The position numbers were made by a program, and so were the translations under genes. Below are positions 4,244-36,732 of a DNA stretch of 59,911 nt, in pieces. The stretch covers positions 1-59,911 of the forward strand of contig WFNB01000087.1 in the NCBI GenBank assembly GCA_015488755.1. Reading direction: 5' to 3'. This stretch comes from Gammaproteobacteria bacterium. Its GTDB lineage: Bacteria > Pseudomonadota > Gammaproteobacteria > GRL18. Every line of letters starts with the position of its first letter. Position 1 is the stretch's first letter. A model generated the notes under the pieces. It worked only from the letters and a program-made list of their open reading frames with translations. It did not search any database and was not told the DNA's origin.

Positions 4244-6367
4244 TTAAAACTTAAAGCCTTTAAACTTATCACCAAACTGTTTCTCTAGTTGTTTATTGAG
4301 CTCTTTTTCAACTTTCTTTTTCACTTCCTTTTCTAACACTTTGCTGATATTGGCTTCTTCTGAGAGCTCAGAAAACTTACCCTTAATGGTATAAGGAAAT
4401 TCTTTTCCTTTGAAATCAGTTCCTTGAGAATCTTTATCAATCTTCATACTATTTAACATTTTAATGGCTAGAGTATAATCCAAGTACTCCTTGGGGACAT
4501 CAGCATAGCCCTTACCTGTTAACTCCATAACGGGTGATTTGCTGGCCAAATCATCATTACGAAATACTCCATTTTTAATCTTCATGGTGCCTTTTAATTC
4601 GGTAAATTTAGTATTTTTATCTTGCGATTCAGTAGGGATTGCTCGGCCTTTTAACAAAGCATCGGCCTTTCTTATGGTACTTAAAATATCTAATTTCTTA
4701 ATATGGCCATCGGTAATAAGAAACTTAGCAATACCATTACTATTTTTTATTAAACGGTCTTTATCATTACCCAAGGTTGTGATATTTGTTGAGATATTAG
4801 CAACACCAGTAAATTCCTGAGTACCGGTTGTGTCTTGCAATAAATCGCCCAATTGTACCCCTTTTAATTGATTAACAATTTTTAGCTTGGGTGTTTTACC
4901 ACGGGCATCAATATCTGTTTTTAGGTTAATGGTACCCTGATACAGCTTGGCCTTTAACGGTGCTAGTTGTACTAAGCCCTTGTGTCCCTTTAAGACAATA
5001 ACCACATCACTCATCTTAGCATTGCCTGCAATAAATTGAGCAATGTGTAATTTGCCACTTAAATTGAGTTTTCGTAATACTTCAACAGGAAATAATGGGC
5101 CTCTGGATGCAGTCTTTGGGGCTGATTTCTTGTTATCAGTTTTTGCTTTAGCGGCTGGGGTGGCTTGCTCAGCAAGGGCATAATAATCAATATTTAATTG
5201 ATTAAGAGTAAGATCAAAGCCATAAAGAGGTTTGCTAAAGTTCTTAATTGAGGCCGTACCCTTTAAAGAGGTATCATCAAGATTGGCTTCCAAGGAGCTA
5301 ATGTTTAGGGTACTGCTGGTGCCGGTAAAACTGAGTTTGGCGTCAGCCGTTGTTAAAGCCTTGTCTTCTTTCATTTTAGGCAAACTGGCACCTAATGTTG
5401 TAGCCAGTGTTTTAGGTGAAAACTGCTCAATACTGAGCTGACCATTAAACTGTGGTGAGCTATTGAGTTTATTTGCATGAAATAAGCCTTTCATAACCAT
5501 ATCAAAGGAGGTGAGTTGCATTTTATTGACTTCAAGTGTTTGTGACTGGCCATTAAAACTAATATCACCAGAAAGCACGGTTTTATTAGCACCACCGGGT
5601 AAAATTGCTCCTTTTAAGTCGAGTGATAATTTAGTATTCGGTAATTGAAACAATTGTTTTGTTAATGAAATTGTGGGTGAGCTATCGAGTGTAAAATCGC
5701 CAGATATGGCAGGATTATTACTATTAATATGGGTAGTAACGGTCAGATCAAAGGGACTATCTTCAACTAATTTACTGATAGTGATATTACTTTTTTCCAA
5801 ACGGATCACTTGCTTAGCCTGCGCATCTGTCCAAGTGATAAGAGCATCACTAATTATTAAACCTTCGACCTCAATGGCGGGCATGGTGCTTGAGTCAGAT
5901 TTTTTCTGAGTGTCTTTATTTTGTTTGGCCGGTGATTTTTTAGATGCCTTATCTTTGCCTGATAAATCACTCCAGTTAGTTTTTCCTTGCTTATTTTTAA
6001 CCAGATTCAACTCCATACCACTGAGCTTGATTTGGCCAATATTTAAACGATTATCATTTATTAAAGGCATTATATCGACAAATAATGAAGCCCCTTTTAT
6101 TTTAGCAAAGGGCTTGTCAGTAAAGCCTTTGGCATTACTCAACTCCATTTTACCCAGCTCCAGAGAAACAGCCAAAGGCAGTGATACGGCCAGATCAATA
6201 TTGCCTTCAATGGTCAGAGTTCGCCCTGTCTGATCAAAGACTTGCTGGGCAATTTGATCCTTATAGTCATTTGGATCGACAAATAGGGGAATCAATATGC
6301 CTGCCAAAACAACAATAATGATAAGAGAAACAATAGTCCAAAGGAAAAATTTAAGTAATTTAGTCAT
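4244..6367 (-). CDS. asmA: AsmA family outer-membrane biogenesis / inner-membrane-anchored protein
   Basis: The protein has about 707 residues. One N-terminal membrane helix (FFLWTIVSLIIIVVLAGILI) is followed by a long periplasmic region rich in beta-strand, the layout of AsmA-like proteins. These belong to the bacterial lipid-bridge group thought to move phospholipid toward the outer membrane. The N-terminal AsmA domain shows DPNDYKDQIAQQVFDQTGRTL and the C-terminal domain includes the NGIAKFLITDGHI type segment. The C-terminus is lysine-rich. The longest frame begins with TTG at 6379; the ATG at 6367 (MTKLLKFFLW) is the more natural start. A strong terminator follows. Confidence 0.88.
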   Translation of the reverse strand: MTKLLKFFLWTIVSLIIIVVLAGILIPLFVDPNDYKDQIAQQVFDQTGRTLTIEGNIDLAVSLPLAVSLELGKMELSNAKGFTDKPFAKIKGASLFVDIMPLINDNRLNIGQIKLSGMELNLVKNKQGKTNWSDLSGKDKASKKSPAKQNKDTQKKSDSSTMPAIEVEGLIISDALITWTDAQAKQVIRLEKSNITISKLVEDSPFDLTVTTHINSNNPAISGDFTLDSSPTISLTKQLFQLPNTKLSLDLKGAILPGGANKTVLSGDISFNGQSQTLEVNKMQLTSFDMVMKGLFHANKLNSSPQFNGQLSIEQFSPKTLATTLGASLPKMKEDKALTTADAKLSFTGTSSTLNISSLEANLDDTSLKGTASIKNFSKPLYGFDLTLNQLNIDYYALAEQATPAAKAKTDNKKSAPKTASRGPLFPVEVLRKLNLSGKLHIAQFIAGNAKMSDVVIVLKGHKGLVQLAPLKAKLYQGTINLKTDIDARGKTPKLKIVNQLKGVQLGDLLQDTTGTQEFTGVANISTNITTLGNDKDRLIKNSNGIAKFLITDGHIKKLDILSTIRKADALLKGRAIPTESQDKNTKFTELKGTMKIKNGVFRNDDLASKSPVMELTGKGYADVPKEYLDYTLAIKMLNSMKIDKDSQGTDFKGKEFPYTIKGKFSELSEEANISKVLEKEVKKKVEKELNKQLEKQFGDKFKGFKF

Positions 6368-9007: not shown

Positions 9008-9208
9008 TTGGAAATTTTAGTAAATGGTGAAGTAAAAAAGGTTCATGCCTCTTTTTCAGTTCAGGATCTACTGACTGAAATGGACATAGTTGGGCAACGT
9101 CTAGCAGTTGAAGTGAATGAAGAAATTGTTTCTAAGAGTCGCCATAGTGACTACTGCTTTAAGGATGGAGATAAAATTGAGATTGTCCATGCCATTGGTG
9201 GTGGCTAA
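9008..9208 (+). CDS. thiS: ThiS sulfur-carrier protein
   Basis: This 66-residue ubiquitin-like protein ends in HAIGGG, so it has the C-terminal diglycine that is thiocarboxylated to carry sulfur for the thiazole ring of thiamin. It begins MEILVNGEVKK and has the standard ThiS length. The start is TTG with GAGGA at 8996-9000; no ATG is available upstream in frame. Its partner thiG is 4 kb away at 13282, although many gammaproteobacteria have thiS-thiG-trmB contiguous. No thiF or thiH is in the window. Confidence 0.93.
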   Translation: MEILVNGEVKKVHASFSVQDLLTEMDIVGQRLAVEVNEEIVSKSRHSDYCFKDGDKIEIVHAIGGG

Positions 9209-35763: not shown

Positions 35764-36096
35764 TTATTTTTGTAAGCTAAATACGGTTTCAGCCGTCTTT
35801 TTATCAATACTGACATGCAGCTCACAATAGGTATTTTCCTGCATGGGATCATCACCACAATTACAGCCAGCAATGATTTCATTAAAAAAAATGCCAACAT
35901 GAATGCGTATATGGGTATCGTTTTCTTCTGCTTTATTGATGAGAGCAGAAATGTTGCTATCATCTGCTTGACCACCCTGACAAGTGGCTTTATTTAATGG
36001 CAGGGTGTCTTTTGGGAGGTTCTCAAGTTCCTGTTTTAGCACTTTTTTGAAGTCTTCATATTCCCAATGCTTTAATGATCGGCTTAGTTTTATCAT
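35764..36096 (-). CDS. Conserved hypothetical protein with a cysteine cluster
   Basis: I recognise no named family. The 110-residue protein ends with a beta-rich domain HIRIHVGIFFNEIIAGCNCG followed by DDPMQENTYCEL. Together with the earlier Cys of KATCQGGQADD there are four cysteines, which could bind metal. There is no signal or membrane segment. It is 18 bp downstream of the DUF971-MoaD gene on the same strand, so the two probably form an operon. Confidence 0.75.
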   Translation of the reverse strand: MIKLSRSLKHWEYEDFKKVLKQELENLPKDTLPLNKATCQGGQADDSNISALINKAEENDTHIRIHVGIFFNEIIAGCNCGDDPMQENTYCELHVSIDKKTAETVFSLQK

Positions 36097-36114: not shown

Positions 36115-36732
36115 TTATTTTGCCTTTGGGATCAGAGCGATTTCATCACCATGTTCTAATACGGTAAAAAGCTCAGCAAATTCTTTATTAACGGTAAATT
36201 GAATGCTGTCGTCACTGAAGGCACGTTGCCAGCGGTTACCCCGTTTTCTTAATAACTCAAGCAATTGTTCAACGGTATTGACGCCTATGGGTAACTCAAG
36301 CTCTTCTTCCTCTTTAGTAAATTTAATGAGTTTATCCATAAAATAAAGCACTTTGATTGTTGCTGGACCATCGTGGCTGCTATTAATATCACCACGAGTC
36401 AGACAGTGTTGTTCAAGTGTTTTTAGATACTCAGACCAATAAGATTGGTAGTTTTTTCCTAGCTCATAGAGTGTTTGCCAAGAATAAATACCCTGATCAT
36501 AACCATCATCAAAAAATAGCCTTAGAGCATAGCTTCCCTGTGCTTCTATGGAGTCAATATTGACATTGATTTTTCCTGAAACGGGTATGTCAGAGGTTGT
36601 TATTTCAGCTGATTTAGCATGAGTACGTAAATACTCACAACTGAGACGATAATTTTCTCCGGTATCAAAACTGATTTCTAATAAGCGGGATTTTTTATGT
36701 AGATTAATTGCAATTGGATTGTGTTCAGTCAT
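36115..36732 (-). CDS. DUF971 domain fused to a MoaD-like ubiquitin fold lacking the C-terminal diglycine
   Basis: Residues about 5-100 match DUF971 (the N-terminal domain of gamma-butyrobetaine hydroxylase-like proteins): IAINLHKKSRLLEISFDTG, SCEYLRTHAK and the FFDDGYDQGIYSW segment. Residues about 125-205 look like MoaD/ThiS: IKVLYFMDKLI, VNTVEQLLELLRKRG, and FTVNKEFAELFTVLEHGDEI. In MoaD the segment after GDE runs into a terminal GG that is thiocarboxylated; here it ends ALIPKAK with no glycine. It is therefore unlikely to carry sulfur by the usual chemistry. It sits in front of the cysteine-rich hypothetical gene, with palindromic element copy 4 starting 36 bp upstream. Domain assignments are from motif reading. 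Confidence 0.8.
   Translation of the reverse strand: MTEHNPIAINLHKKSRLLEISFDTGENYRLSCEYLRTHAKSAEITTSDIPVSGKINVNIDSIEAQGSYALRLFFDDGYDQGIYSWQTLYELGKNYQSYWSEYLKTLEQHCLTRGDINSSHDGPATIKVLYFMDKLIKFTKEEEELELPIGVNTVEQLLELLRKRGNRWQRAFSDDSIQFTVNKEFAELFTVLEHGDEIALIPKAK

Follow-up and report, generated by a model that had tools for sequence, protein, structure and literature searches.

The window analysed here, a 59,911-nucleotide stretch comprising contig WFNB01000087.1 of a Gammaproteobacteria bacterium (assembly GCA_015488755.1), carries a gene that joins a DUF971 domain to a MoaD/ThiS-family domain, followed by a gene for a small four-cysteine protein (Table 1). The initial annotation, drawn from the letters of the window, had described the larger product as a MoaD-like domain fused to DUF971, and both domains score above their Pfam cut-offs. 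PF06155 (GBBH-like_N, equivalent to DUF971) reaches 80.2 bits against a cut-off of 22.8, with residues 9-89 covering profile positions 1-85 of 85, and PF02597 (ThiS) reaches 34.2 bits against 22.5, with residues 131-202 aligned to profile positions 3-71 of 76, so that the alignment stops short of the GG. The best NCBIfam family for the second domain is moaD (TIGR01682), which at 41.9 bits lies under its cut-off of 66.15. The 2OG oxygenase domain of gamma-butyrobetaine hydroxylase has no Pfam match in the 205-residue protein, which holds only the two small domains.

Table 1. Features of the fusion locus and the internal control, in window coordinates
Feature	Position	Strand	Remarks
DUF971-MoaD (no GG) fusion gene	36115..36732	-	205 aa (codons) plus stop; ATG start; C-terminus ...GDEIALIPKAK, then stop
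DUF971 / GBBH-like_N domain, residues 9-89	36466..36708	-	PF06155 E 2e-22; model matches structures 2l6p, 2l6n, 3luu
MoaD/ThiS-family beta-grasp domain, residues 131-202	36127..36342	-	PF02597 E 3.8e-8; model matches structures 1jwb_D, 1fm0_D
Fusion C-terminus P202-K-A-K plus stop	36115..36129	-	canonical MoaD sulfur-carrying tail PVTGG missing
Four-cysteine protein	35764..36096	-	110 aa; family without a name; 18 bp downstream of fusion
thiS (internal control, outside the unit)	9014..9205	+	protein ends GGG

An AlphaFold model of the fusion was built from a 52-row alignment of homologues (mean pLDDT 85.8, pTM 0.73). Its predicted N-terminal half resembles DUF971 structures, with Z 14.9 for 2l6p (residues 2-117), Z 14.0 for 3luu (residues 1-94) and a score in the Z 14-15 range for 2l6n, and the modelled residues 125-205 resemble MoaD, with Z 12.3 for 1jwb_D (77 residues aligned, rmsd 1.6) and Z 12.2 for 1fm0_D (rmsd 2.0). 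Pfam and the predicted structure together confirm the fold and identify the C-terminal half as a genuine MoaD/ThiS-family domain, as the initial annotation had proposed; a chance likeness to MoaD is ruled out by the Pfam score above cut-off and by the structure matches.

The translated reading frame bears out the earlier statement that this domain ends EIALIPKAK with no diglycine, and alignment of homologues extends the loss well beyond the window. A MoaD-type GG is absent from all 52 full-length fusions in the alignment (one of them the window's protein), from the 20 fusions read in genomes of the class (partly the same genomes as the 52) and from the 11 stand-alone GG-less relatives that were read, which are about 82-84 residues long. 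Both Pfam domains were found in all 52 full-length fusions, with PF02597 at E <= 0.001 in every case. Among at least 62 loci listed, a set of 56 (L146-L201) comprises 51 full-length fusions together with partial, internally deleted or stand-alone copies, and GG is not at the end in 55 of them; the remaining one, the partial L175, ends PTPGG, but this GG closes a Pro-rich extension running 11 residues past the normal end, and its relatives have the extension with no GG. From the same list, L202-L207 are canonical MoaD with GG. Because the GG is missing from 52 of 52 full-length fusions, the end of the window's chain is not a truncation, and a frameshift or premature stop hiding a GG is ruled out by close relatives, whose ends differ from it by a few residues at most. 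Farther afield, none of the plasmid records covered 80% of the fusion protein, the best 5 of 17 matches spanning residues 1-113 only, and a phylum-wide draw of 349 genomes, some of them from the same class, gave no match above 77.2 bits except the window's own; the 11 other loci inspected from that draw all carry PPV(T/S)GG.

In an unrooted tree of 108 domains, a branch with support 100/98 separates 84 GG-less rows from canonical MoaD. Two internally deleted copies (L171 and L201) and the window's ThiS, too short once trimmed, were dropped beforehand, and some genomes occur twice in the tree and in the column counts below, as two overlapping genome collections were used. L207 was tagged as GG-less by a rule that considers the end only, but this MoaD-MoaE-like fusion has PPVSGG internally and groups with canonical MoaD; for the same reason L203 was moved by hand to the canonical rows, and both were excluded from the column counts. 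The separation of the GG-less rows from canonical MoaD, stand-alone versions included, points to an early loss with retention of the fold. Judged from the alignments and the tree, the loss of GG is both general and old.

Ordinary sulfur carriers persist alongside the GG-less domain. The window's own ThiS ends in GGG, in agreement with the initial annotation, and a search of the rest of the genome found a separate canonical moaD on contig 111, ending GDEVAFFPPVTGG and adjoining moaE; the moaE match pairs with this moaD and not with the fusion. At least two ThiS-family matches are present in all 38 carrier genomes tested, and MoaE in 36 of the 38, the exceptions being G065 (96% complete) and G237 (77% complete).

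An even draw of 369 genomes from the class was used to assess the distribution of the GG-less domain, and a profile of the domain matched 144 of them; carrier counts cover the matches listed, which leave out at least five of the weakest-scoring genomes (G084, G147, G270, G277 and G357) and some second matches. Among the matches listed, the domain occurs in 34 genomes from 20 families, fused in 23 (in G003 and G311 cut by contig ends) and read as stand-alone in 11, and a script check of the 99 remaining listed matches found 97 with GG and two that run off a contig end. All 34 carriers among the matches listed possess dsrA above cut-off, against 112 of the 369 genomes of the draw overall (genome-level p 4e-20, a significance inflated by shared ancestry). 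At the level of families, the 20 carrier families among the matches listed lie within 57 dsrA families (p ~5e-12, assuming 182 families in the draw). As a control, dsrA was found in 35 of 103 genomes whose listed matches all bear GG (a smaller set counted earlier gave 7 of 14). The sulfur link suspected in the initial annotation is supported by the 34 of 34 carriers among the matches listed and by the neighbourhoods described below. Among the matches listed, the domain is absent from 78 of the 112 dsrA genomes of the draw and so is not generally required for dsr.

Within the genus of the window, an internally undamaged fusion is present in 11 of 15 other genomes (G004-G013, and G003, where a contig end cuts it); the copies of G001 and G015 have internal deletions, G014 retains a relic, and no fusion was matched in G002. 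Beyond the genus, the fusion occurs in scattered members of the class. In the family as a whole, dsrA is above cut-off in 11 of the 14 intact carriers (G000, G003-G013, G016 and G019). The three intact carriers without a full dsrA, in draft assemblies, are G009 (95% complete), with a 55-residue fragment, G011 (79%), with a partial match, and G010 (64%), with none, and assembly gaps may be the cause in each. Five genomes of the family that have no fusion (G002, G018, G021, G022 and G023) retain dsrA, as do G014 and G015 with their degraded copies; G001 has only dsr fragments and G017 lacks both genes. Retention of dsrA in these fusion-less and degraded-fusion genomes indicates that the fusion is dispensable.

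The window's genome itself carries a dsr cluster (L231) in which a family search recognised dsrA, dsrB, DsrE-, DsrF- and DsrC-type genes and dsrK, and which presumably also holds the dsr-like genes dsrH, M, L, J, O, N and R; aprBA is present elsewhere (L212). Two full-length dsrA genes occur in this genome, on contigs 68 and 81 (L230 and L231), and the copy of L230 has no recognised dsr neighbour in a 16-kb stretch, the other lying inside the dsr cluster. Reverse-Dsr sulfur oxidation sustains vent, seep and sediment symbioses, and the carriers among the at least 62 loci listed include Sedimenticola, Ca. Thiodiazotropha, the Lamellibrachia and Escarpia symbionts and Thiogranum, with symbionts of tubeworms and lucinid clams among them.

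The association extends to the Apr enzyme, as aprA is above cut-off in 33 of the 34 carriers against 34 of 46 other dsrA genomes, the 46 being the best-scoring dsrA genomes rather than a random sample. By score and length, the AprA matches divide into two groups consistent with Apr lineages I and II (L212-L229), and carriers lean towards lineage II. The longer, lower-scoring type is found in 30 of the 34 carriers against 12 of the 46 (Fisher 2e-8, from a hand count in which carrier G120 was classed from a partial gene); the exceptions are G003, G181 and G354, with the lineage I type, and G007, with no aprA. A gene that we take to encode an aprM-like membrane protein adjoins aprB in L224 and L227, both of the lineage I class, and its copy in L224 has only weak NCBIfam matches, to QmoC and TcuB. 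The AprB loop KGQD(K/R), where read, fits Apr lineage II as described in the available portion of PMC2211403. Apr lineage II as a trait of carriers is not relied on here, given the non-random set of 46, the post hoc split and the four exceptions.

Gene neighbourhoods link the fusion to the same pathway in part of its range. Of the 56 loci L146-L201 (among at least 62 loci listed), BLAST places aprB in 12, aprA in 9 and sat in 7. In G159 and G271, which belong to one family, the fusion adjoins aprB and aprA, and in G271 also sat; NCBIfam confirms both aprB and aprA in G159 and sat in G271. A DsrE-family gene adjoins the fusion in G106; the neighbours in G065 are a gene resembling A-type Fe-S carriers and a QueD-like gene. 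The linkage to apr is confined to one lineage, and the neighbours elsewhere look unrelated. A gene of about 110-140 codons lies 3' of the fusion in G080, G216 and G148 (L037:6891-7238; L129:4623-4952; L107:3386-3805), and its copy in L129 has no Pfam or NCBIfam match. The stand-alone GG-less MoaD genes of G105 and G332 adjoin one and the same gene (L140:2962-4218; L144:~4400-6089), which by its look we take to be SirB1/transglutaminase-like.

We tentatively propose that the domain is a former sulfur carrier that has been kept for non-covalent docking, within an accessory factor that serves sulfur oxidation in the cytoplasm. The C-terminal half would descend from a MoaD sulfur carrier whose thiocarboxylate-bearing tail was permanently lost; it would neither carry sulfur nor undergo the usual conjugation, and would dock non-covalently instead. 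Joined to DUF971, or alone in some lineages, the GG-less domain would serve as an accessory factor of the reverse Dsr pathway, usually together with Apr, and would most likely use the retained face of its beta-grasp fold to bind a Dsr or Apr enzyme or the machinery that matures it. Such docking could help to assemble or hold an enzyme of the Dsr/Apr pathway, or affect its turnover. The initial annotation had likewise supposed that sulfur transfer was lost in favour of a structural or binding role; the general absence of GG agrees with this, and the lost chemistry and the docking are what we infer from it. Our confidence in the reading as a whole is limited mainly because the partner is inferred and because several dsr genomes manage without the gene.

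The face in question can be followed in a column comparison of the 84 GG-less rows with 22 canonical MoaD rows, in which an assumed E. coli MoaD sequence gives the MoaD positions. F7, L59 and F75 presumably form the face of MoaD that contacts MoaE and MoeB. F131, the equivalent of F7, is kept in 84 of 84 GG-less rows and F185 occupies position 59 in 83 of 84; T180 stands in place of A54 in 83 of 84, and K/R183 in place of Q57 in all 84. The column of MoaD Arg11 holds R in 21 of 22 canonical rows and mostly A, V or L in the GG-less rows, and that of F75 holds V or I in 81 of 84, with PVTGG lost. By these columns, the predicted beta-grasp face has been kept hydrophobic but altered, as would suit a module that docks to another partner or to a modified one.

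A retained face could also mean that the old partners are still engaged, with the GG-less MoaD competing with the real MoaD for MoaE or MoeB and thereby damping or scaffolding the supply of Moco, for example to a Mo-dependent sulfite oxidase. This would suit the partial retention of the face at F131 and position 59, the presence of MoaE in nearly all carriers tested and the identity of the top MoaD match of the model, 1jwb_D, which is MoaD complexed with MoeB. However, the Arg11 column is lost and F75 replaced by V or I, no moa gene was seen beside the fusion in the neighbourhoods inspected by eye, and in G065, a single draft, the fusion is accompanied by one further ThiS-family match but MoaE was not matched. 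We consider a regulator of Moco synthesis unlikely and prefer docking to a component of the Dsr/Apr pathway.

The DUF971 half of the proposed accessory factor brings in a second set of candidate partners. DUF971-only paralogues adjoin hslU in 11 of 11 loci examined, the best-scoring ones (L023-L033), and the window's genome has a DUF971-only gene beside hslU and hslV (L042:6364-8750; NCBIfam identities), which hints that DUF971 works with HslUV. The fusion might accordingly be imagined as an adaptor of HslUV (ClpYQ), in which an HslUV-associated DUF971 and a GG-less ubiquitin fold present clients in the manner of the UBL of a proteasome shuttle factor. But the (R/Q)GHG loop present in the 9 hslU-linked DUF971 proteins compared is missing from the fusions, hslU was matched around 72 fusion loci only once, weakly and over 60 residues (L036), and the case for a contact between DUF971 and HslUV is one of gene neighbourhood; an adaptor of this kind is improbable.

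Sulfur might instead be carried by another route, as a persulfide on C32 of DUF971, with the MoaD-like half docking to a relay of TusA, DsrEFH or rhodanese. C32 is the one conserved cysteine column of the fusions (50 of 52), a DsrE-family gene is a neighbour in G106 and the carriers are nested within dsr genomes. The equivalent cysteine, however, is also present in 8 of 9 hslU-linked DUF971 proteins compared, which weakens the case for a special sulfur site; the column holds Y in two fusions and S in G159, and the stand-alone GG-less relatives, read by eye, have no DUF971 part at all. This route, too, has little probability. The cysteine also bears on a metal role, one of the two suggested for the unit in the initial annotation, for which the sequences give no support: the CxCxxC motif of the metal-binding DUF971 type, described for HCF101-type DUF971 in the accessible part of PMC7980591, is not present in the 52 fusions compared, and the single conserved cysteine is the one shared with the hslU-linked proteins.

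Decay of an accessory gene with no specific function, the least credible reading, would draw on the three broken or internally deleted copies of the genus and on the lack of a match to the fusion in G002 and in 6 of the family's 8 other genomes, but is already disfavoured by 27 columns invariant over 52 fusions, with identity to the window's protein down to 43%; together with presence in 20 families, these columns indicate purifying selection. Decay is visible locally, in three sister genomes: G001 (L046:2853-3500), G014 (L045:6900-7322) and G015 (L020/L201).

Set beside known systems, the protein that we read as a docking factor shares with MoaD (TIGR01682; E. coli 1fm0_D) the beta-grasp fold, the VN and GDE(V/I)A motifs and the invariant F at position 7, but it lacks GG, scores below the TIGR01682 cut-off, has lost Arg11, does not lie beside moaE and is attached to DUF971. 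RnfH, which we take to be a prokaryotic beta-grasp protein without GG, offers the same GG-free ubiquitin-like fold; it belongs to a different family, whereas the present domain is a direct relative of MoaD. With DUF971 proteins (PF06155; 2l6p, 2l6n, 3luu) the fusion shares its N-terminal half (80.2 bits, Z 14-15 for the model), but the hslU-linked members examined have a single domain and the (R/Q)GHG loop, whereas the fusion has two domains and no loop. HCF101, an Fe-S protein composed of MIP18/DUF59, a P-loop domain and DUF971, likewise joins DUF971 to another module according to the available parts of PMC7980591, PMC11838916 and PMC5890173; the fusion differs in having no P-loop NTPase, DUF59 or CxCxxC. 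The function of DUF971 is termed elusive or undefined in the available parts of PMC7980591 and PMC11838916. The MoaD/ThiS fusion partners named in the accessible portion of PMC1779556 are MoaE, ThiG, sulfite reductase and aldehyde ferredoxin oxidoreductase; these proteins likewise combine the domain with a partner, but DUF971 is not among the partners named there, and the present fusion has lost its GG. Within the open-licence PMC literature, no paper was found that mentions both DUF971 and MoaD.

A gene found almost only with the reverse-Dsr pathway is a candidate new component of that pathway, and the fusion could offer a route to a function of DUF971. As a natural example it is also clear-cut: a sulfur carrier would have lost its chemistry, with the fold and much of the face conserved. 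It is possible, although we regard it as rather doubtful in this specific form, that the protein is a new reverse-Dsr/Apr accessory protein combining a sulfurless ubiquitin-like docking module with a DUF971 from an HslUV-associated family, and that it may guide the assembly or turnover of Apr or Dsr.

The four-cysteine gene downstream is, judged from the spacing, perhaps co-transcribed with the fusion. Its product has no Pfam or NCBIfam family at cut-off; an alignment of 11 family members (the window's protein, nine others from the genus and one from a sister genus) keeps three of the four cysteines in every row, and the family motif is GC(N/S)C-x-D(D/E)P...YC-like (window 35764-36096; L050-L076). 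An AlphaFold model (pLDDT 85) has no PDB match at E <= 0.001, and several NTF2-like structures appear at E 0.01-0.1. The initial annotation had joined this gene and the fusion into an undescribed metal- or sulfur-related unit; a neighbour with four cysteines is indeed there, but a special unit is not borne out. The two genes adjoin in 10 of the 56 loci (among at least 62 listed), all from the window's own genus or one sister genome, and 27 further four-cysteine loci inspected by eye with 1.5-kb flanks show no fusion alongside. Of 274 genomes from the class, 55 have the gene; 38 of these are dsrA-positive and 11 carry the GG-less domain. In G001, G014 and G015 the gene is undamaged beside a degraded fusion. 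An obligatory unit is rejected on the strength of this wider family, the overlap of 11 in 55 and the survival of the gene beside degraded fusions; the four-cysteine protein is a neighbour from a wider family, not an obligatory partner. In G085, the fusion is followed by a gene for a protein that looks receiver-like by eye (L036:6556-6945), a copy without a Pfam or NCBIfam match, and homologues of this gene precede the four-cysteine gene in G237 and G117 (L050:153-536 and L053:1802-2230), an indirect link between the fusion and the four-cysteine gene.
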